Positions 4,950 to 41,926 of a stretch of 42,820 nt of DNA are shown piece after piece; positions within the stretch are counted from its first letter, which is position 1; each line of letters begins with the position of its first letter. The position numbers and the translations under genes were made by a program. Origin of the DNA: Thiobacillus sp. (GTDB lineage Bacteria > Pseudomonadota > Gammaproteobacteria > Burkholderiales > Thiobacillaceae); NCBI GenBank assembly GCA_024709425.1, contig JANJWS010000061.1, positions 1 through 42,820 on the forward strand, written 5' to 3'. The notes beneath the pieces are model-generated. The model ran no database searches. It was not told the DNA's origin and worked only from the letters and a program-made list of their open reading frames with translations.

Positions 4950-5067
4950 GTGATATGCTCGGGTCATCGCGGAAAACCGGCATTCTAGCAACATCGACCG
5001 GGCTGAGACAGCCGGATCGCCGCCGGATTCCCGAATCGTGTCATTCCGTTTCCAGCCCTTTCGCTCC

Positions 5068-6435
5068 ATGCTGCACATCACCAATTCGCTCACCCGCACC
5101 AAGGAAGCCTTCGTCCCGCTCGTGCCCGGCCGCGTCCGCATGTACGTTTGCGGCATGACCGTGTACGACCTGTGCCATCTTGGACACGCGCGGGTGTTCG
5201 TCGTGTTCGACATGGTGGTGCGCTGGCTCAGGGCGGGCGGATTCGAGGTCGAGTACGTCAGGAACATAACGGACATCGACGACAAGATCATTAGGCGCGC
5301 GCAGGAAAACGGCGAAACGCCGGCCGAGCTGACCGAGCGCTTCATCGCCGCCATGCACGACGACGAGCGTGCACTCGGCGTGCTGCCGCCTGACCATGAG
5401 CCGCGCGCCACGCGCTACGTGGCACAGATGCTCGCCATGATCGCGCAGCTGGAAAAGAGCGGACTTGCCTACCCCGCGCCCAACGGCGACGTCTATTACA
5501 GCGTGCGGGGCTTCCCCGAGTATGGCCGGCTGTCCGGCAAGAGCCTCGACGAGCTGCGCGCCGGCGAGCGGGTCGAGGTCGACCCCAACAAGCGCGATCC
5601 CATGGATTTCGTGCTGTGGAAGGCCGCCAAGCCGGGTGAACCGGCGTGGGACTCGCCGTGGGGACCGGGCCGTCCGGGCTGGCACATCGAATGCTCGGCG
5701 ATGAGCGCCGAACTGCTCGGCCGCCATTTCGACATCCACGGCGGCGGACAGGACCTGCAATTTCCCCACCACGAGAACGAAATTGCGCAATCCGAGGGCG
5801 CGCACGCGTGCAAGTTCGTCAACTACTGGCTGCACAACGGCTTTGTGCGCGTCGACAACGAGAAGATGTCGAAATCGCTCGGCAACTTCTTCACCATCCG
5901 CGAAGTGCTGCGGAAATACGATGCCGAGGTGGTGCGTTTCTTCATCCTGCGCGCGCACTACCGCAGTCCGCTCAACTATTCGGACGCGCACCTGGACGAC
6001 GCGCGCGGCGCGCTCACGCGGCTCTACACGGCGCTCAAGGGTGCGCCGGGCGAAACCGCTCCGATCGACTGGCAGGTGCCGGCGGCGGCGCGCTTCCGTG
6101 TGGCGATGGACGACGATTTCAACACCCCCGAGGCGATCGCCGTGCTGTTCGACCTCGCCAGCGAGGCCAATCGCGGCGACGCCGCTGCCGCCCGCCTGCT
6201 GCGGGCGCTGGGCGGCACGCTCGGGCTGCTGCAGCGCGACGCCGAGGTCTTTCTCAAGGCCGGGGTGGCCGCGGGCGGGCTCGACGAAGCGGCGATCGAG
6301 GGCCTGATCGCTGCGCGCCAAACGGCACGCAAGGCGAAGAATTTCGCCGAATCGGACCGCATCCGCGACGAACTTGCGGCGAACGGCGTGGTTCTGGAGG
6401 ATGGGGCGGGCGGTACGACCTGGCGGCGCGCCTGA
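5068..6435 (+). CDS. cysS: Cysteinyl-tRNA synthetase
   Basis: A class I aminoacyl-tRNA synthetase of 455 residues (E. coli CysS has 461). It charges tRNA-Cys in the cytoplasm. The first zinc ligand lies in [15 protein letters not shown], where HLGH is the HIGH motif. Further zinc ligands lie in HIECSAM and in FPHHENE, and the KMSKS loop is intact (KMSKSLGN). The start chosen is the ATG at 5068 ([13 protein letters not shown]), which matches the family N-terminus; a GTG thirty bases upstream would only add an unrelated decapeptide. The gene is transcribed away from the TPR gene and ends at a strong terminator. Confidence 0.96.
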
Positions 6436-6456: not shown

Positions 6457-6486
6457 AAAAAAGGGACGGCGAACCGTCCCTTTTTT
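6457..6486. terminator. Bidirectional intrinsic terminator
   Basis: A perfect inverted repeat has an AAAAAA tract, a 7-bp G/C stem (GGGACGG / CCGTCCC), a CGAA tetraloop and a TTTTTT tract. Because A- and T-tracts flank the stem symmetrically, it should work in both directions. It ends cysS on the plus strand and the Met-rich repeat gene on the minus strand. Confidence 0.93.
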
Positions 6487-6503: not shown

Positions 6504-7373
6504 TTACTTGGCGGCGGGTGCGGGCGCCGGAGCCGCAGCGGGTGCGCCATAGTAGCCGGCCGGATTCATCATGTTCATCCACGCGTTCGGGTCGAAGAAA
6601 TTGAACGTGGTGGCCGGGGCGACCGCTGTGCCGGCGGCGGCAGGCTGGCCTGCGGCGGGGGCGGTCATGCCCATCCAGCTGGCCGGGTCGAAGAAGTTGA
6701 AGGTGGTGGTTCCGGCCGGTGCGCCTGCGCCGGCGGCGCCATAGGTGGCCGGGTTCATCCAGGTGCCCCAGGAACCATACGTGGCGGGGTTCATCGACGC
6801 GTTCATCCAGCCGGTGTACGTGGCGGGGTTCATCGGTGCCATCATCATCTGCCACAGACGCGGGTCCATCGGCGCCATCATCCACTTCATGTACATGGCG
6901 GGGTTCATGGACTGCATCATCATGTTCCACATCTGCGGATCCATGGGCATCATCATCCAGCGCATCATCTTGCCCGGATCAAACAGCTGGGTCATCAGCG
7001 CGGTGTAGAAATTGGGGTCCATGGAGGCCGCCATCCACTTCATGTACATGTTGGGATCGGCGAACTGCATGTAGTTGGACAGCGAGCGCGGGTCCATCAT
7101 GGAGCCCATCATGCGGTACCAGTTGCCCGGCTCCATCATGTTGATGCCCATCTGGGTGTAGAAACCCGGTTCGGTGACAGCATTGGCCCAGGGCACGAAC
7201 ACCTTGGGGTCGCGGTAGGCGGACATGTTCTGGGTGAAGTCGGTCATGCGCTCCAGCCACTGCTGGCTGGTTTGCGGAACGGCCGTGGGTGCGTTGGCGG
7301 GGGCGGTACCGTTGGCAAATGCGGCGGGGGCCATGGCGAGGCCAAGGGCAACGACAAGGAATTTCGCTTTCAT
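6504..7373 (-). CDS. Exported methionine-rich 12-13-residue repeat protein
   Basis: An unrecognised protein of 289 residues. The signal peptide is MKAKFLVVALGLAMAP with likely cleavage after AAFA. The start at 7373 has GGAG six bases upstream; an in-frame ATG four codons earlier is less well placed. Thirteen prolines from residue 56 to 208 are spaced 12 or 13 residues apart, marking a degenerate tandem repeat: P-x-x-[YWF]-x-x-[WM]-M-x-x-x-M-[DN]. Residues 221-275 hold two copies of a TTFNFFDPxxWMxM motif. The tail is Ala/Pro-rich. About 43 Met occur in roughly 269 mature residues, with many Trp and Tyr and no Cys. Inferred roles: periplasmic oxidant sink, soft-metal (Cu/Ag) binding, or an amphipathic-helix lipid- or granule-binding protein punctuated by Pro. 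None is proven. Confidence 0.88.
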   Translation of the reverse strand: MKAKFLVVALGLAMAPAAFANGTAPANAPTAVPQTSQQWLERMTDFTQNMSAYRDPKVFVPWANAVTEPGFYTQMGINMMEPGNWYRMMGSMMDPRSLSNYMQFADPNMYMKWMAASMDPNFYTALMTQLFDPGKMMRWMMMPMDPQMWNMMMQSMNPAMYMKWMMAPMDPRLWQMMMAPMNPATYTGWMNASMNPATYGSWGTWMNPATYGAAGAGAPAGTTTFNFFDPASWMGMTAPAAGQPAAAGTAVAPATTFNFFDPNAWMNMMNPAGYYGAPAAAPAPAPAAK

Positions 7374-7435
7374 GATCGACTCCATTGAACGGGACGGGGA
7401 ATGTAAAAAATCACTAAACTAGATAGGGTGTTTGA

Positions 7436-7464
7436 ATTATTTGTTTGCATTAGCATATTGTCAA
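7436..7464 (-). promoter_or_regulatory. Sigma-70 promoter of the Met-rich repeat gene
   Basis: On the minus strand a perfect -35 box TTGACA (7464-7459) is followed after 17 bases by AATAAT (7441-7436). Transcription would start near 7429, giving a leader of about 55 bases before the ATG at 7373. The match is close to consensus and stands out in an AT-rich gap, suggesting strong expression. Confidence 0.75.
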
Positions 7465-7501: not shown

Positions 7502-7966
7502 GTGTGCTCGGTGATCACTACCCGGCTCGTGTCGGTCGGAGCGGCCGGTTGGGATCGACCGGAATGGCGCGGAAGCTTCTATCCTGATGACCTGCCCGTC
7601 GACTGGCTGTTGCCGTATTACAACGCTCATTTTCAGGCGGTCTACCTGCCGTTTGCCGCCTGGCAAGCGGCTACCGATGAGAACTGGTCCCGTTGGCTGG
7701 ACGATACGGACGCGGATTTCGTGTTTGTGCTCGAACCCGGGGGGCCGTCACCGCGCCTGCCCCGGTCCGCGCGCGTCGTGCTGGCTGTGCCCGACTGGGC
7801 GGCAGCGCACCTGTGGTGGCTGGAGGACGCTCCCGACCTGCGTGCGCTCGCGCAATGCATCGGGCAACACGCCGCAACAGGGGAGCCGCTGTTCGTGTTC
7901 AGCCGGCAGGGCGACCTGGCGCGTCTCGAACAAGTCGCGAACCTGCGGCAGGTCATGGGTTATTGA
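7502..7966 (+). CDS. Short DUF72-like protein
   Basis: 154 residues from a GTG at 7502; in-frame GTGs at 7511 and 7529 are alternatives and none has a clear ribosome site. The N-terminal half, VGAAGWDRPEWRGSFYP followed by LPVDWLLPYYNAHFQAVYL, resembles the start of DUF72 (YecE-like) TIM-barrel proteins, which usually have 240-290 residues. The second half (ARVVLAVPDWAAAHLWWLED) could be the final strands of such a barrel with the middle missing. Codon use and GC content match its neighbours and the frame is intact, so it may be a shortened functional protein rather than fresh debris. It sits just upstream of mlaF. Function unknown. Confidence 0.55.
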   Translation: MCSVITTRLVSVGAAGWDRPEWRGSFYPDDLPVDWLLPYYNAHFQAVYLPFAAWQAATDENWSRWLDDTDADFVFVLEPGGPSPRLPRSARVVLAVPDWAAAHLWWLEDAPDLRALAQCIGQHAATGEPLFVFSRQGDLARLEQVANLRQVMGY

Positions 7967-10112: not shown

Positions 10113-11482
10113 AACCCCAACCCCTCCCCAGGATGTTAATGGCAGCGGGCCTCGTGCTCGGCGCGCTGCCGACGTACGCGGAAACCATCAACCTGCAGCA
10201 GGCCGTGGAAATGAGCCTTGCGGCCGACCCGCGCATCAAGGAGCGCGAACAGGTCGTCGAGGCCGCGCGCGGCTTGGTGCAGGAAGTCCGGGGCAATGCC
10301 GGCTGGCGGGTGAGTGCCAACGCCTTCGTCGGGCTCGCCCCCAAGGTCGAGGACGGTTTCTATCAGGGCGGTGCGTATACCTGCACGGTGCTGCCATGCA
10401 CCCCGCGTACCGACGGCGACGACTGGAACGGCCTTTCCGACTGGACCCACCTCGATTTCGCCCTGATCAAGCCGCTCTACACCTTTGGCAAGGTGGAGCG
10501 ATACGGCGAGGCCGCACAAGGCAACGTCGATCTCAAGCGCGGCGAGCTCCAGCAGACCCGTGGTGACATCGTTTACGACACCAAGCGTGCCTATTTCGGC
10601 TATCTCACCGCGCGCGACGTCCGTGTGTTCCTGGAGGACATGCAGGAGCGCCTGAACGGCGCCATCACCTCGGTCGAGCGCAACCTCAAGGAGGAAACCG
10701 GCGAGTCGCGCCAGTCCGACCTGTATGCGCTGCAGGCGGCGCGCGGTCTGCTCGGAAAATACACGCACCAGGCGCGCGCGGTCGAGAGGATCAGCCTCGA
10801 CGGCCTCAAGGTGCTCACTGGCGCCGGGCTGAAATCCCAACTGGCGGTAGCCGATGCGCGCATCGAACCACTGCCCTTCCCGCAGGTCGAACTCGCCGAA
10901 TTCCAGTCGCGTGCGCTGCAGGAACGGGCCGAGATGCAGCAGCTCGAAGCCGGCCTGCGTACGCGCCGCGCCCTGTTGGCGGCGAAGAAGGCCGACCGCA
11001 TGCCGGACGTGTACGCCGGGGTGGTCGGGCAGTTCAACTATGCCTCGCAGCGCGAGCGGCTCGACAACCCCTATCTGAGCGATCCGTTCAACGGTGGCGG
11101 GCTTACTCCCGTGGTGGGGGTGAAATGGGATACCGTGTTCGGTGTCGCCCGTGCGCGTGTCGATCAGGCCCAGGCCGAACTTGAAGCACTCAATCACAAG
11201 AAGGCCTTCGCGCTCGCCGGGATTCCATACGAGGTCGGTGAGGCCTACGTCAATGCGCACGCCAACTTCGAGGCGCAGCGTGAGCTCGCCGAGGGGGCCG
11301 CAGCCGCGCGGCGCTGGATGGTGGCCGCACTGGCCGATTTCTCGGCGGGCCTGGAAACCGCGGACAAGGTTGCCGATGCGATCCGGAACTATGTGCTGAC
11401 GCAGACCGAATATCTGCGCACCATCAACGACTACAACATGAACGTCGCCCAGCTGGCGCGGCTCACGGGTGAACTCCGCTGA
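10109..11482 (+). CDS. TolC-family outer-membrane channel in the mla operon
   Basis: 457 residues with a signal peptide (cleavage near TYA-ET). Typical outer-membrane efflux features are an N-terminal block INLQQAVEMSLAADPRIKE and long amphipathic helices rich in Ala, Glu, Gln and Arg. These appear as two related halves, with the second starting near LAEFQSRALQERAEMQQLEAG. TolC-like proteins are trimeric channels spanning outer membrane and periplasm. Here the gene lies between mlaD and mlaC, where many betaproteobacteria carry mlaA (vacJ). It starts within the mlaD stop (ATGA), so translation is coupled. An inferred role is the outer-membrane partner of the Mla system or of the YadGH-like ABC exporter downstream. 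Confidence 0.88.
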   Translation: MKPQPLPRMLMAAGLVLGALPTYAETINLQQAVEMSLAADPRIKEREQVVEAARGLVQEVRGNAGWRVSANAFVGLAPKVEDGFYQGGAYTCTVLPCTPRTDGDDWNGLSDWTHLDFALIKPLYTFGKVERYGEAAQGNVDLKRGELQQTRGDIVYDTKRAYFGYLTARDVRVFLEDMQERLNGAITSVERNLKEETGESRQSDLYALQAARGLLGKYTHQARAVERISLDGLKVLTGAGLKSQLAVADARIEPLPFPQVELAEFQSRALQERAEMQQLEAGLRTRRALLAAKKADRMPDVYAGVVGQFNYASQRERLDNPYLSDPFNGGGLTPVVGVKWDTVFGVARARVDQAQAELEALNHKKAFALAGIPYEVGEAYVNAHANFEAQRELAEGAAAARRWMVAALADFSAGLETADKVADAIRNYVLTQTEYLRTINDYNMNVAQLARLTGELR

Positions 11483-11526
11483 GGTATTGACGTCTACCCC
11501 GAGCGAATTTCAGGAGCAGGAAAATT

Positions 11527-12159
11527 ATGTTGCGCTCTTTCTTACTGGCGCTGGTGCTGGCTTTCGGGTTCGGTACGGTACATGCCAACGATGTGCCTCC
11601 CGACGTGTTGGCGCGCACCACCACCCAGGAAGTGCTGGCTGTCCTGAAGCAGGACAAGGACATCCAGAACGGCAATTCGGCGAAGATCCTCCAGCTGGTC
11701 GAGGCCAGGGTGCTGCCGAATTTCGACTTCAACCGCATGACCCAGCTCGCGGTCGGCAAGCATTGGCCGCGCGCCACCGCCCGGCAAAAGCAGGCGCTGG
11801 TCACTGAGTTCCGCAATCTCCTGGTGCGCACCTATTCCGCCTCGCTGACCGCGTTTTCCAATCAGACCGTGGAATTCAAGCCGCTGGCGATGAAGCCGGA
11901 TGCCACCGACGTCACCGTGCGCTCGGAAATCCGCCAGCCCGGCGGACAGCCCATCCCCATCGACTACAGCATGTACAAGACCGCCTTCGGCTGGAAAGTC
12001 TACGACGTGTCGATCGACAGTGTCAGCCTGGTGACCAACTATCGCGCATCGTTCGCCACCACCATCCGCCAGCAGGGTATCGACGGTCTCATCAAGACGC
12101 TTGCCGCCCAGTCCGCCCGCGCCGCCCCCGCCAAGCCGGCGGCGCGTCCCGACTCATGA
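11527..12159 (+). CDS. mlaC: Periplasmic phospholipid carrier MlaC
   Basis: 210 residues with a signal peptide (cleavage near VHA-ND). The MlaC/Ttg2D fold is indicated by VEARVLPNFDFNRMTQLAVG near residue 60, by FRNLLVRTYSASLTAF, and by YKTAFGWKVYDVSIDSVSLVTNYRAS split across two blocks near residue 160. MlaC shuttles phospholipid between MlaD and the outer-membrane complex. The start follows an AGGAGCAGGA ribosome site. The C-terminus carries an Ala/Pro extension and its stop overlaps mlaB. Confidence 0.94.
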   Translation: MLRSFLLALVLAFGFGTVHANDVPPDVLARTTTQEVLAVLKQDKDIQNGNSAKILQLVEARVLPNFDFNRMTQLAVGKHWPRATARQKQALVTEFRNLLVRTYSASLTAFSNQTVEFKPLAMKPDATDVTVRSEIRQPGGQPIPIDYSMYKTAFGWKVYDVSIDSVSLVTNYRASFATTIRQQGIDGLIKTLAAQSARAAPAKPAARPDS

Positions 12160-12425
12160 TCGCCTGCGAAGGCGGGGCCTGCCGCATCGACGGTGACGTG
12201 ACCGTCGACACGGTCGGCGGCCTGCTGCGTGCCTTGCAGCCGCATCTGTTGGCGGGGATCGACCGCCTCGACTTCAGCGCCGTCACGCGCGCGGATTCCT
12301 CGGCGCTCGCCCTGGTGTTCAGTGCGATCCGGCAGAACCACGGCAGGTTCTCCTGCACCGGCCTGCCCACCAGTTTCGCCACGCTCGCTGAACTCTACGG
12401 AGTGGCCGATCTCCTGCCCGCATGA
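12156..12425 (+). CDS. mlaB: STAS-domain protein MlaB
   Basis: 89 residues, a single STAS domain of the MlaB type that binds MlaF and stabilises the transporter. LDFSAVTRADSSALALVFSAI is the conserved helix region with the DSS motif, and the preceding strands (CRIDGDVTVDTV) match. It starts in an ATGA overlap with mlaC and ends in an ATGA overlap with the ABC ATPase gene, so three genes are translationally coupled. Confidence 0.9.
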   Translation: MIACEGGACRIDGDVTVDTVGGLLRALQPHLLAGIDRLDFSAVTRADSSALALVFSAIRQNHGRFSCTGLPTSFATLAELYGVADLLPA

Positions 12426-13330
12426 GGAGCACGGATCCCGCGATTCGCGTCGACGGCCTGCGCAAGCGTTTTCAGGCCACCCAGGCGCTCGATGGGGTTT
12501 CGCTCGACATCGGACCGGGCGAGTTCTTCGGCCTCCTGGGCCCCAACGGTGCCGGCAAGACCACGCTCATTTCCATCCTTGCCGGACTGGCGCGCGCCGA
12601 TGCCGGCCATGCAAGGGTGATGGGGCACGACGTCGTGCACGACTATCGCCAGGCGCGTCGCGCCCTGGGCGTGGTGCCTCAGGAACTGGTCTACGACCCC
12701 TTCTTCAACGTGCGCGAGACGCTGCGCATCCAGTCCGGTTACTTCGGTCTCAGGCACAACGACGACTGGATCGACGAGATCATGCACCATCTCGCGCTGA
12801 CACCGCACGCCGGCAAGAACACGCAGCGCCTGTCCGGCGGCATGAAGCGACGCCTGCTGGTGGCGCAGGCGCTGGTGCACAAGCCGCCCGTCATCGTGCT
12901 CGACGAGCCCACCGCCGGGGTCGACGTCGACCTGCGCCGTTCGTTGTGGGCCTTCATCAGCCGCCTCAACCGCGAAGGGCACACCATTCTCCTGACCACG
13001 CATTACCTGGAGGAAGCCGAGGCCCTGTGCGGCCGCATCGCCATGCTGAAGAGCGGCCGCATCGTCGCCTGCGATACCACGCGGAATCTCCTGCTGCACA
13101 CCAACGAGCACTGCGCGCAGCTGCGGCTGGATGCGGAGACGGTGCCCGCGGCCTGGCAGGCCCGCCTGCAGCGTGATGCCGACGGCCGCTGGCGACTCAA
13201 TTTCGGTGACTATGCCGAGCTGGAGAACCTGCTCGCCGACCTGCGCGCCGCCGGCATCCGCGTGCAGGAACTTCACCTGCAGGAACCCGACCTGGAGGAT
13301 GTCTTCACCGACATCATGCAGCGCACATGA
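12422..13330 (+). CDS. ABC-2 type transporter ATPase (YadG-like)
   Basis: 302 residues. Walker A is GPNGAGKTT (residues about 40-48), the signature is LSGGMKRRL and Walker B is VIVLDEPTAGVD, followed by the switch His in LLTTHYLEEAE. The C-terminal ~80 residues are the regulatory extension seen in the YadG group (LHLQEPDLEDVFTDIM). The partner is the ABC-2 permease downstream. This pair is commonly found after mlaB in betaproteobacteria, but its substrate is unknown. The normally tight junction with the permease is interrupted by a REP pair. Confidence 0.9.
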   Translation: MRSTDPAIRVDGLRKRFQATQALDGVSLDIGPGEFFGLLGPNGAGKTTLISILAGLARADAGHARVMGHDVVHDYRQARRALGVVPQELVYDPFFNVRETLRIQSGYFGLRHNDDWIDEIMHHLALTPHAGKNTQRLSGGMKRRLLVAQALVHKPPVIVLDEPTAGVDVDLRRSLWAFISRLNREGHTILLTTHYLEEAEALCGRIAMLKSGRIVACDTTRNLLLHTNEHCAQLRLDAETVPAAWQARLQRDADGRWRLNFGDYAELENLLADLRAAGIRVQELHLQEPDLEDVFTDIMQRT

Positions 13331-37711: not shown

Positions 37712-38734
37712 ATGACTAATCTAACCACGCAATCTCTTGTCGAATACCTGAATGGCCGCCCGGGCGGGGCTTCTTCGGGCGGGATCGAGGCCCAGTTCGG
37801 CGTTAGCCGGAGCACCCTGATCCGTCGCTTGAAAGCCGCCATGCAGGCGGGCGCCATCACCGTTACCGGCAAGGGCCCCGCGACGCGGTATTTCAGTGCC
37901 GATCCGCTGTCCGCGCTGAAAGCATACTTCGCTAGGTCCCACACCGACAGGGTTGTCGCGCCCTACCGGGAAGAACGTCTCGCGCCCTTGCCCGGCCTCT
38001 CCGATGAGGCGGCCCTGAAATTCAGGGGCATTACCAGGCATCCGCTAGGCAAGCGCGAGCTCGGAAAATTCCTGATCGACTTTGCTTGCGCCTCGTCGGT
38101 CCTGGAGGGTGGTACCTACTCGCTGCTCGACACCCAGGCCCTGATCGAATACGGCGAGAAGTCCCCGGGCAAGCCGCTTGAAGACGCCTTCCTGGTGCTC
38201 AACCACAAGGCGGCATTCGAGTATCTCCACGACAACATGCGGCTCGATTCCATCTACCGCGTCCACGACCTGCTCACCAGTGATCACGACCTGCCGGAGC
38301 TCGCCGCGTCGCGCCACTTCCTGCCTGCAAACGAGCGTGGCGTGGCACGGGAATATGCGGAGGTCGATATCGCCCTCTCCACCTACCTGCCGCCATTTCG
38401 CCCGGGCACAGGCTACATTGCCAAGGCGCTGGAGCGTGTGCTGGAGACCGCTGACTCGATCCGGGATCCGGTGCAGGCAGCCTTTTACCTGCTGACGCGC
38501 ATCCCGTACCTCCAGCCCTTCAAGGACGGCAACAAGCGGACGTCGCGCGCGATCTGCAACGTCCCGCTGATCCGCGCAGGCCTCCCCCCGATCTCCTTCG
38601 TCGATTTCGGGAAGCAGGATTACATCGTGTCGCTGCTGGCGTTCTATGAACTCGGCGACACCCGCCTTGCAGAACACTGCCTCGTCGAAGCCTACACAAA
38701 ATCCATCGTGCGTCTCGGCATTCCGAAGCCATGA
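37712..38734 (+). CDS. Winged-helix Fic family protein, altered active site
   Basis: 340 residues. Residues 1-65 form a winged-helix domain (GGIEAQFGVSRSTLIRRLKA with a recognition helix, then a GKGPATRYF wing). The Fic domain follows. The class II inhibitory motif [ST]xxxE[GN] is present at residues 128-133 (SSVLEG). The active-site loop, normally HxFx[DE]GNGRxxR, reads QPFKDGNKRTSR at 268-279. The His that normally deprotonates the target hydroxyl is Gln268, and the second Gly is Lys as in Doc. Canonical Fic enzymes transfer AMP to proteins; without the His this activity may be lost or changed. It stands alone, with no separate antitoxin gene. Confidence 0.88.
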   Translation: MTNLTTQSLVEYLNGRPGGASSGGIEAQFGVSRSTLIRRLKAAMQAGAITVTGKGPATRYFSADPLSALKAYFARSHTDRVVAPYREERLAPLPGLSDEAALKFRGITRHPLGKRELGKFLIDFACASSVLEGGTYSLLDTQALIEYGEKSPGKPLEDAFLVLNHKAAFEYLHDNMRLDSIYRVHDLLTSDHDLPELAASRHFLPANERGVAREYAEVDIALSTYLPPFRPGTGYIAKALERVLETADSIRDPVQAAFYLLTRIPYLQPFKDGNKRTSRAICNVPLIRAGLPPISFVDFGKQDYIVSLLAFYELGDTRLAEHCLVEAYTKSIVRLGIPKP

Positions 38735-40317: not shown

Positions 40318-40611
40318 ATGCGCAAGCTCTCCGTCACCCCATTCCCCGACCATCCGGCTGTCGCCAGCCCAGAGGATGTCGGCGTGCTTGTGCGAGCGGT
40401 TCGCACAGCTACCGGTATGACCCTGGAGGAGGCAGCCCTTACCCTGCAAGTAGCAAAGCAGACCTTGCAGAACCTGGAAAAAGGGAAAGGCACCGTATCT
40501 TTGAACCTGGCATTCAAGGTGCTGACCGGACTGGGCATCAGGCTGCACTGGCAGGCGCCTGAAGGTACAAATCCTGAGACGAGAAAGAAGGATATCCCGG
40601 ATGCGTCTTGA
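40318..40611 (+). CDS. hipB: HipB-type antitoxin, XRE family regulator
   Basis: 97 residues. The helix-turn-helix runs from DVGVLVRAVRTATGMTLEEA through ALTLQVAKQTLQNLEKGKGT (two helices with a VAKQTLQNLE recognition helix). The C-terminal strand LGIRLHW is typical of HipB. It binds the three operators upstream and neutralises HipA. The ATG is preceded by AGGA, and the gene overlaps hipA by 11 bases. Confidence 0.92.
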   Translation: MRKLSVTPFPDHPAVASPEDVGVLVRAVRTATGMTLEEAALTLQVAKQTLQNLEKGKGTVSLNLAFKVLTGLGIRLHWQAPEGTNPETRKKDIPDAS

Positions 40612-41926
40612 GGTTTGGCTGGATCGGGACTTGGCAGGCGGACTGTCTTATGACCCTGGCAGCAACCGGTTTGCCTTCGATTACGCCCCGGCCTGGCTGA
40701 GCCGGCCACATGCCTATCCTCTAGGTCCGACGCTCCCCCTATCGCCAGCGCCGTCGACGCCTGATGAGCACAGCGCGCGGGTGCGGCAGTTCTTCGAAAA
40801 CCTTCTGCCGGAAGGCCAGGCCCTGGACGATGCCGCGAACGCATACCGCGTATCCAAGGCAAATCTAACCGGACTGCTCATTGCCTTGGGGCGTGAAACC
40901 GCGGGCGCGGTGCGCCTTGTGATGCCCGGTGCGCAGGGACAGGACAGCGAGCGGCGACGGCTGCTGACCCGCGAAGAGCTCTCGGATCGGATACGCGCAC
41001 GCCCCCGGATGCCTTTCGCGGTCTGGGACGGCAAGGTGCGCCTGTTAATCGCCGGTTTCCAGGACAAGTTGGCCGTGCTGGATGACGCGGGCACCTGGTA
41101 CCTGGTGGAGGGGCCTGACTTGGCCTCCACCCACATCTTGAAGCCAGACCCAATCAATCCGTCGCTGGCCGGTCTCACCTCGAACGAATTCTTCTGCATG
41201 AAGCTGGCGGCCGCATGTGGCCTGGAGACAGCTTCCGTAGCGTTGCACCACGTGCCCGAGCCCGTTCTCTGCATCACTCGTTTCGACAGATATCGGGAGG
41301 GTGCGGCAGTACGCCGTCGTCACGTGATTGACGGCTGTCAGCTGCTGGGGCTGCAAAGCGGCTATAAATACGAGCGGCCCTACGGAGACAACCCGGACGT
41401 TCGAGATATTCGGGACGGGGCCTCGCTCGCCCGCTTCTTTGCTGCCACAGACGCAAGCCCGCAACCCGCAAAATCCAGGTTGCAGCTACTGCGATGGCTG
41501 GTGTTCCAGGTGCTCCTCGGCAATACCGATGCCCACGCAAAGAATCTTTCCTTCTACATGACCGCCGCCGGGCCGCTACAGGCACCGGCCTACGACCTGC
41601 TTTGCGGCGCGCTATACAAGACAGAGAACGTTAGCCAGACCTATGCCATGGCCATCGGCGATGCGTTTGGCACGGAGGAGCTGTCGGCCTACGAGTGGGC
41701 CCAGTTCTGTCTTGCCACAAAAATCAACCCGACCCTGGTGCGCAGGGAACTTGAGCGCAGCGTCAAGGCCATTCGGGTTCAACTGCCGAGAGCGGCTGAG
41801 GAAGTTCTTTGCGACGGCGCCGTGAGCGGAGTAGTCAGCCAAATCTCTGATGTGGTGGAGGCGGAGTGCTCCCGTCAACTCACCTTGGCCCCGCTCATCA
41901 AGGATATGCTGGACGTGGCTCGGTAG
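40601..41926 (+). CDS. hipA: HipA-family Ser/Thr kinase toxin with altered phospho-site
   Basis: 441 residues, normal length. Kinase landmarks: STHILKPDP near 185, NEFFCMKLAAACGLE, LCITRFDRYREG, VIDGCQLLGLQ, the catalytic loop LLGNTDAHAKNLSFY (Asp and Asn present) and APAYDLLCG. HipA toxins phosphorylate targets such as glutamyl-tRNA synthetase and switch off by autophosphorylating a serine just before the AGxQ[ED]K loop (Ser150 in E. coli). Here that loop reads LIAGFQDK and the corresponding residue is Leu149 (codon TTA at 41045-41047). A single base change from TCA would explain it. Catalytic residues otherwise look intact. Confidence 0.93.
   Translation: MRLEVWLDRDLAGGLSYDPGSNRFAFDYAPAWLSRPHAYPLGPTLPLSPAPSTPDEHSARVRQFFENLLPEGQALDDAANAYRVSKANLTGLLIALGRETAGAVRLVMPGAQGQDSERRRLLTREELSDRIRARPRMPFAVWDGKVRLLIAGFQDKLAVLDDAGTWYLVEGPDLASTHILKPDPINPSLAGLTSNEFFCMKLAAACGLETASVALHHVPEPVLCITRFDRYREGAAVRRRHVIDGCQLLGLQSGYKYERPYGDNPDVRDIRDGASLARFFAATDASPQPAKSRLQLLRWLVFQVLLGNTDAHAKNLSFYMTAAGPLQAPAYDLLCGALYKTENVSQTYAMAIGDAFGTEELSAYEWAQFCLATKINPTLVRRELERSVKAIRVQLPRAAEEVLCDGAVSGVVSQISDVVEAECSRQLTLAPLIKDMLDVAR

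Follow-up and report, generated by a model that had tools for sequence, protein, structure and literature searches.

The window, which is the whole stretch of 42,820 nucleotides of Thiobacillus sp. analysed here, carries a gene for an exported protein built from regular methionine- and aromatic-rich units. Its repeat family, which our searches met mostly in sulfur-oxidising bacteria, may help these cells to retain or coat extracytoplasmic elemental sulfur. We tentatively propose, with a probability of roughly 45%, that the window protein is an extracytoplasmic structural protein (scaffold or coat) for zero-valent sulfur in sulfur oxidisers of the Dsr type. This proposal fits the export, the Met/Trp/Tyr units, the multi-copy genes, the existence of an OmpA-anchored form and the Dsr/SoxT/DUF302 setting of some relatives. 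No named family was found for the protein; for the function proposed here, the sulfur globule proteins are a known example. The dispersal, coating and availability of insoluble elemental sulfur in the periplasm or at the cell surface have been explained mainly in the purple sulfur bacteria. With a distribution that follows the Dsr pathway, and with some members beside a SoxT-DsrE-TusA relay, the repeat family provides candidate sulfur coats in chemolithotrophs, together with a simple chemical idea, i.e. thioether and aromatic faces on sulfur.

The gene and its repeated units

The coding sequence (289 amino acids plus stop) lies at 6504..7373 on the minus strand. By eye, the start was placed at the ATG at 7373, where the signal peptide begins and a GGAG is found upstream; an alternative longer start exists at 7385. 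Residues 1-20 (MKAKFLVVALGLAMAPAAFA; 7314..7373, minus strand) were read by eye, cleavage site included, as a signal peptide, in agreement with the export announced in the preliminary description, and signal-like N termini were also recognised by eye in relatives. After this cleavage, the mature protein contains 43 Met in 269 residues (16%), in line with the count given earlier, while neither Cys nor His occurs in the whole protein. The tail is Ala/Pro-rich and carries two FNFFDP[AN][SA]W modules, FNFFDPASWMGM (residues 225-236; 6666..6701, minus strand) and FNFFDPNAWMNMM (residues 257-269; 6567..6605, minus strand), both read directly from the sequence. The first module resembles FN[FW]FDPNAW motifs of MNPATYM-repeat proteins in other genomes.

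The repeat region covers residues 56-208 (6750..7208, minus strand). Translation and spacing count gave the thirteen in-register prolines described earlier, at residues 56, 69, 82, 95, 107, 120, 133, 146, 158, 171, 183, 196 and 208, with successive spacings of 13, 13, 13, 12, 13, 13, 13, 12, 13, 12, 13 and 12. Four extra prolines (61, 143, 168 and 180) fall inside units. When only adjacent prolines of the core are considered, 8 spacings of 12/13 are obtained, a number reached by none of 100,000 shuffles (highest 7). The self-identity of the core peaks at lags 25 (39 matches) and 13 (35), then 12 (28), 38 (26) and 9 (22), the other lags up to 40 giving 4-19 matches. The underlying repeat is therefore a pair of units of 12 + 13 residues, with a super-period of 25. 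The first eleven spacings are identical in the window protein and in its OmpA-fused paralogue, and two distant members (G365 and G221) alternate strictly between 12 and 13 over 23 intervals each.

The anatomy of the unit was drawn from the window protein, the OmpA-fused paralogue and four distant members. Proline at position 1 and a final D/N are common to 12-mers and 13-mers. Positions 3, 4, 7, 8, 10 and/or 11 are mostly hydrophobic, Met falling on this side, and positions 2, 5, 6 and 9 are mostly polar or small. Position 7 is Trp in 20 of 40 13-mers and Met in 37 of 44 12-mers. The mean helical hydrophobic moment ranges from 0.37 to 0.63 in the six proteins, versus 0.25-0.30 in shuffled units, and in each of them 0 of 2000 shuffles reached the real value; for G221, just 15 units entered this test because TP steps inside units split the others. 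Short amphipathic helical units bounded by [DN]-P, as previously suggested, are thus consistent with the significant moment and with the helices predicted in weak models. The two AlphaFold2 models had a poor mean pLDDT, 32.9 with 7 rows and 55.9 with 15 rows for the repeat part, and gave no reliable fold. Both placed helices, at low confidence, between most [DN]-P steps, so that the structure prediction proposed at the outset returned the expected helix in most units but at a pLDDT of only 33 and 56.

The absence of a named family was also upheld. The window protein had no match in Pfam, only one chance match in NCBIfam (E 0.062, far below its cut-off) and nothing in PHROGs, where one weak match was obtained for the distant locus L091. 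A Foldseek search against the PDB returned a single match at E 8, which amounts to nothing, and our A2 profile had no match among PDB sequences. Among the relatives scanned, cut-offs were passed only by the OmpA domain of paralogue L002 and by a doubtful GerD match of L093, a distant protein of the DPKMM type (31.5 bits vs. a Pfam cut-off of 29.5). L094 came close to the same cut-off (25.6), and the NCBIfam GerD model scored L093 at 32.6 against a cut-off of 100. We take the GerD match of L093 as compositional, not as kinship to the spore protein domain. Among the matches listed from titles and abstract beginnings of open-licence PMC articles, no paper on the repeat family was found.

A sigma-70-like promoter match (TTGACA-17-AATAAT, 11/12; 7436..7464, minus strand) was found by pattern scan, in line with the consensus promoter reported previously; the scanned region held 2 such sites versus 0.5 expected by shuffling. 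Downstream, a 13-bp hairpin at 6457..6486, with A-run and T-run arms plain in the sequence, sits behind the convergent cysS gene (5038..6435, plus strand; Pfam tRNA-synt_1e and CysS_C) and resembles a bidirectional terminator shared by the two genes. The terminator announced earlier stands as far as folding is concerned, the 64-nt stretch with the hairpin folding well (z -3.9), but the terminator pattern scan reported none, this hairpin included. On the other side, a divergent DUF72-like gene (7502..7966, plus strand; DUF72 below the Pfam cut-off) is followed by mla-type genes, among which Pfam recognised ABC_tran, MlaE, MlaD and MlaC. Compared with five orthologues, the window gene has a dN/dS of 0.12-0.22, and these orthologues keep Met at 33-42 of 45 positions. 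Given the dN/dS, the kept Met, the repeat statistics, the gene's own promoter match and the hairpin, we conclude that the window gene is real and under selection. Elsewhere in the window, a Fic/DOC-domain protein (37712-38734) and a HipA-type protein (40601-41926), both recognised by Pfam, are possible toxin-antitoxin genes.

Paralogues, close relatives and distant subfamilies

Paralogues, the OmpA fusion, relatives and the sulfur-oxidation context of these relatives all go beyond the preliminary description. The genome holds three copies of the family: the window gene, a 465-aa protein ending in an OmpA domain (L002; PF00691) and a 258-aa protein (L003). A contig scan identified 13 loci, 7 in Thiobacillus and 3 in Hydrogenophilales or Hydrogenophilaceae, with cysS and a DUF72-like gene nearby in 12 of the 13 and mlaE in 11. 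Within the window's genus, a search that rests on a single-protein query found family matches in 5 of 36 genomes, that of the window among them; each of the five gave 3 to 6 matches and the remaining 31 gave none. The sister genus has five genomes with 5 to 8 matches, and none was listed without a match. In nine Thiobacillaceae loci shown with a family gene, no sulfur-oxidation gene was recognised beside it.

Tandem copies were also seen. Locus L096 has two family copies side by side, a divergent paralogue without Pfam match (10216-10896) adjoining the Met-rich copy. Two tandem family genes are flanked by mla and cysS genes at L012 (5004-6601), where the frame of the second, 227 residues long, contains a lower number of Met, 19; Met content thus drifts although most of the register is preserved.

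The profile search suggested earlier proved productive, yielding relatives with DPKMM repeats or with two cysteines in distant proteobacteria. With the A2 profile, 8 of 399 genomes of the order were matched, own included, as well as 3 of 398 genomes of the phylum, one being again the own genome and one (G576) judged spurious. This last match (E 8.7e-5) was dropped, its frame being read as antisense to a metallo-hydrolase-like ORF, and no co-occurrence count includes G576. The A3 profile, made of proteins with a 25-residue DPKMM repeat, matched 8 of 369 genomes of the class, own included, and recovered the window protein at E 7.7e-15. A2 and A3 align across 171 columns with 99.2% probability, a link between Met- and Pro-rich sequences whose scores may be inflated by composition; the common 25-residue register lends it further support. 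In a third subfamily, A6, two cysteines are invariant in its 7 rows, whereas the repeat regions of the A2 and A3 rows (16 and 4, respectively) contain no Cys at all. The genomes marked in the A6 search coincide with those of A3, which is mostly a consequence of how A6 was built: its rows came from six genomes that it then marked, or from G531. Its independent additions are therefore only G877 and G970, both already known from A3. Searches in the orders of G807 and G1106 (1 and 4 genomes, respectively) recovered only known genomes.

Association with sulfur-oxidation genes

The distribution of the family was compared with those of dsrA and soxB, in terms of gene presence only. A dsrA match over the cut-off was found in 14 of the 15 family-positive genomes outside the window's genus versus 9 of 57 controls (Fisher P = 3.5e-8), these controls being family-negative as far as the search lists show and taken, non-randomly, by consecutive handle from the order (24 genomes, G036-G059) and the class (33 genomes, G797-G806 and G808-G830). 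Two controls (G049 and G826) have dsrA pieces below the cut-off, and counting both would give 11 of 57. For soxB, 14 of 15 positives exceeded the cut-off versus 20 of the same 57 controls (Fisher P = 6.1e-5). Because the 15 positives include five genomes of one genus and two pairs of others, both tests were also run with one row per positive genus, giving 8 of 9 for dsrA (P = 3.3e-5) and 9 of 9 for soxB (P = 2.7e-4). The exceptions are G883, which has the family without a dsrA match, and G996, which has it without a soxB match.

Within the window's genus, dsrA exceeds the cut-off in 33 of 40 genomes, the window's own (G000) included. All 40 give some match to the dsrA model, and several of the remaining seven have strong partial ones; only the 33 were counted because weak matches to this model also arise in E. 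coli. As dsrA is present in 33 of 40 genomes but the family in 5 of 36, the Dsr pathway does not require this family. It is an accessory of Dsr-type oxidisers, not a core part.

The neighbourhoods of distant members point in the same direction for some of them. A SoxT/YeeE-type transporter and a DUF302 gene were found near the family gene in 4 of 13 distant loci (L093, L085, L091 and L090), neither being in view in the other nine, some of which are on short contigs. According to Pfam, L093 carries Sulf_transp, DrsE_2, TusA, a FadL-type porin, the family gene and then a DUF302 protein; a rhodanese-domain gene (L068) lies close to another family gene (L094) of the same contig. L085 presents Sulf_transp, the family gene, MNPATYM-repeat proteins, a DUF302 protein, SoxZ and SoxY (Pfam), and in L091 Sulf_transp and DUF302 flank the family gene (Pfam). 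The Sulf_transp and DUF302 neighbours of L090 were detected by tblastn, its DUF302 being confirmed by Pfam. SoxT proteins of the same transporter family are reported to import sulfur for oxidation (PMC11582611), and DUF302 genes are described within sox operons of other bacteria (PMC5248467).

A possible coat for elemental sulfur and its alternatives

The following mechanism is proposed. Once exported to the periplasm, the protein would be located at the site where sulfane sulfur is left by Sox chemistry. Between [DN]-P breaks, every unit of 12 or 13 residues would form a short helix, and unit pairs recurring every 25 residues would present a face of Met, Trp and Tyr. On chemical grounds, such a thioether and aromatic face could adsorb to hydrophobic sulfur (S8, long polysulfanes), and arrays of these helices might then coat, disperse or anchor sulfur particles as sulfur globule proteins do. 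The paralogues would supply further coat parts, the OmpA-fused form tying the coat to peptidoglycan. L002 shares its OmpA domain with OmpA-like peptidoglycan-binding proteins, whereas the window protein has no such match. Among the roles put forward in the preliminary description, granule binding is the one we count as right, with sulfur as the presumed material bound.

Sulfur globule proteins are exported, hydrophobic and marked by regular prolines, with a gene number varying between genomes, and sgpD has its own promoter and terminator (PMC10386293). The window protein is like SgpA-D of Allochromatium vinosum in its export (by eye), its hydrophobic character, its regular prolines, its scattered multi-copy genes and its host with a Dsr pathway. 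It differs from SgpD, which is almost restricted to Chromatiaceae and has a P-X2-P-X2-P-X4-P pattern (PMC10386293): this pattern is absent from the window protein, which has prolines at 12/13 spacing and Met/Trp units. Our best reading is that it would work like a sulfur globule protein with another architecture, by analogy with the published description of SgpA-D. According to PMC5248467, T. thioparus deposits elemental sulfur both on its colonies and in liquid medium, which would favour a sulfur coat if that strain carries the family. Against a coat, the window copy sits between cysS and mla-type genes, few genomes of the genus have the family while dsrA is common there, nine of 13 distant loci show neither transporter nor DUF302, and nine of the 57 controls have dsrA without a family match. 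A wider reading, possible although we hold it doubtful, is that of a separate superfamily of sulfur-binding proteins, in which arrays of 25-residue helical pairs would solvate zero-valent sulfur through faces of Met thioether and Trp/Tyr. Its forms would be scattered multi-copy coats in Thiobacillaceae, OmpA-anchored proteins, two-Cys proteins, and DPKMM-repeat proteins in SoxT-DsrE-TusA-DUF302 clusters of several proteobacterial lineages.

The nearest rival, with most evidence in common with the sulfur coat, is a periplasmic partner in sulfur relay that would retain polysulfide or pass sulfane sulfur on from SoxYZ towards SoxT, DsrE and TusA. The neighbourhoods with the SoxT-type transporter, DsrE, TusA, DUF302 and SoxYZ agree with it, as does the importer role described for SoxT, and the two cysteines invariant in A6 would be the sulfur carriers. 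The window protein, however, has no Cys, nor do the repeat regions of A2 and A3, and long repeat arrays with many paralogues better suit a structural role; we thus regard a relay function as unlikely. Lipid binding is less probable still. The units are amphipathic and punctuated by prolines like those of exchangeable apolipoproteins, whose helices follow an 11/22-residue period, and a surface protein of the outer membrane could be tied to the adjacent mla lipid-transport genes, mlaE being in the neighbourhood in 11 of the 13 loci. These loci are, however, those of orthologues of the window gene only, and no mla genes were recognised by eye beside the paralogues and distant members read. The mla-side genes also diverge from the window gene, which has its own promoter match and hairpin, and its period is 12 + 13 = 25 in a bacterial protein with a Met/Trp face.

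The two other roles proposed earlier concern methionine itself. MrpX of Azospira suillum is a periplasmic Met-rich protein that acts with MsrPQ, and the window protein, exported and with 43 Met in 269 residues, could likewise expose Met to scavenge reactive chlorine or oxygen species under MsrPQ repair. MsrP is indeed present in the genome, but on contig C53 and not on that of the window (C86). It is not co-distributed with the family either: of 36 genomes, 27 have it over the cut-off, and the majority of these lack the family. Of the three family-positive genomes in that set, G000 and G009 have MsrP, and G013 (84% complete), with three family matches, gave no MsrP match. The strict 25-residue register and the conserved W/Y/P also demand more than a sink, which makes this oxidant-sink idea improbable. 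The chances of Cu(I)/Ag(I) binding through Met thioethers appear slimmest of all. Met-rich periplasmic proteins, CrdA among them, bind copper in other systems, but the window protein lacks His and Cys, its Met fall on the hydrophobic face of each unit, and an inspection by eye of the copies read, with domain scans for a minority of the neighbours, revealed no adjacent copper gene.

Two other kinds of proteins were observed near distant family genes. The family gene of L085 adjoins, near SoxYZ, two apparently exported proteins (11078-12501) that combine a 9-residue repeat of the MNPATYMQW type with a C terminus of the FNWFDP type; similar proteins occur in L084 and L086, and they may form a further sulfur-linked repeat family. 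Exported-looking CxxCH proteins were also recognised by eye close to family genes in L093 (7770-8198) and L085 (12595-13590), i.e. in two unrelated sulfur clusters, where they are perhaps haem-binding partners.
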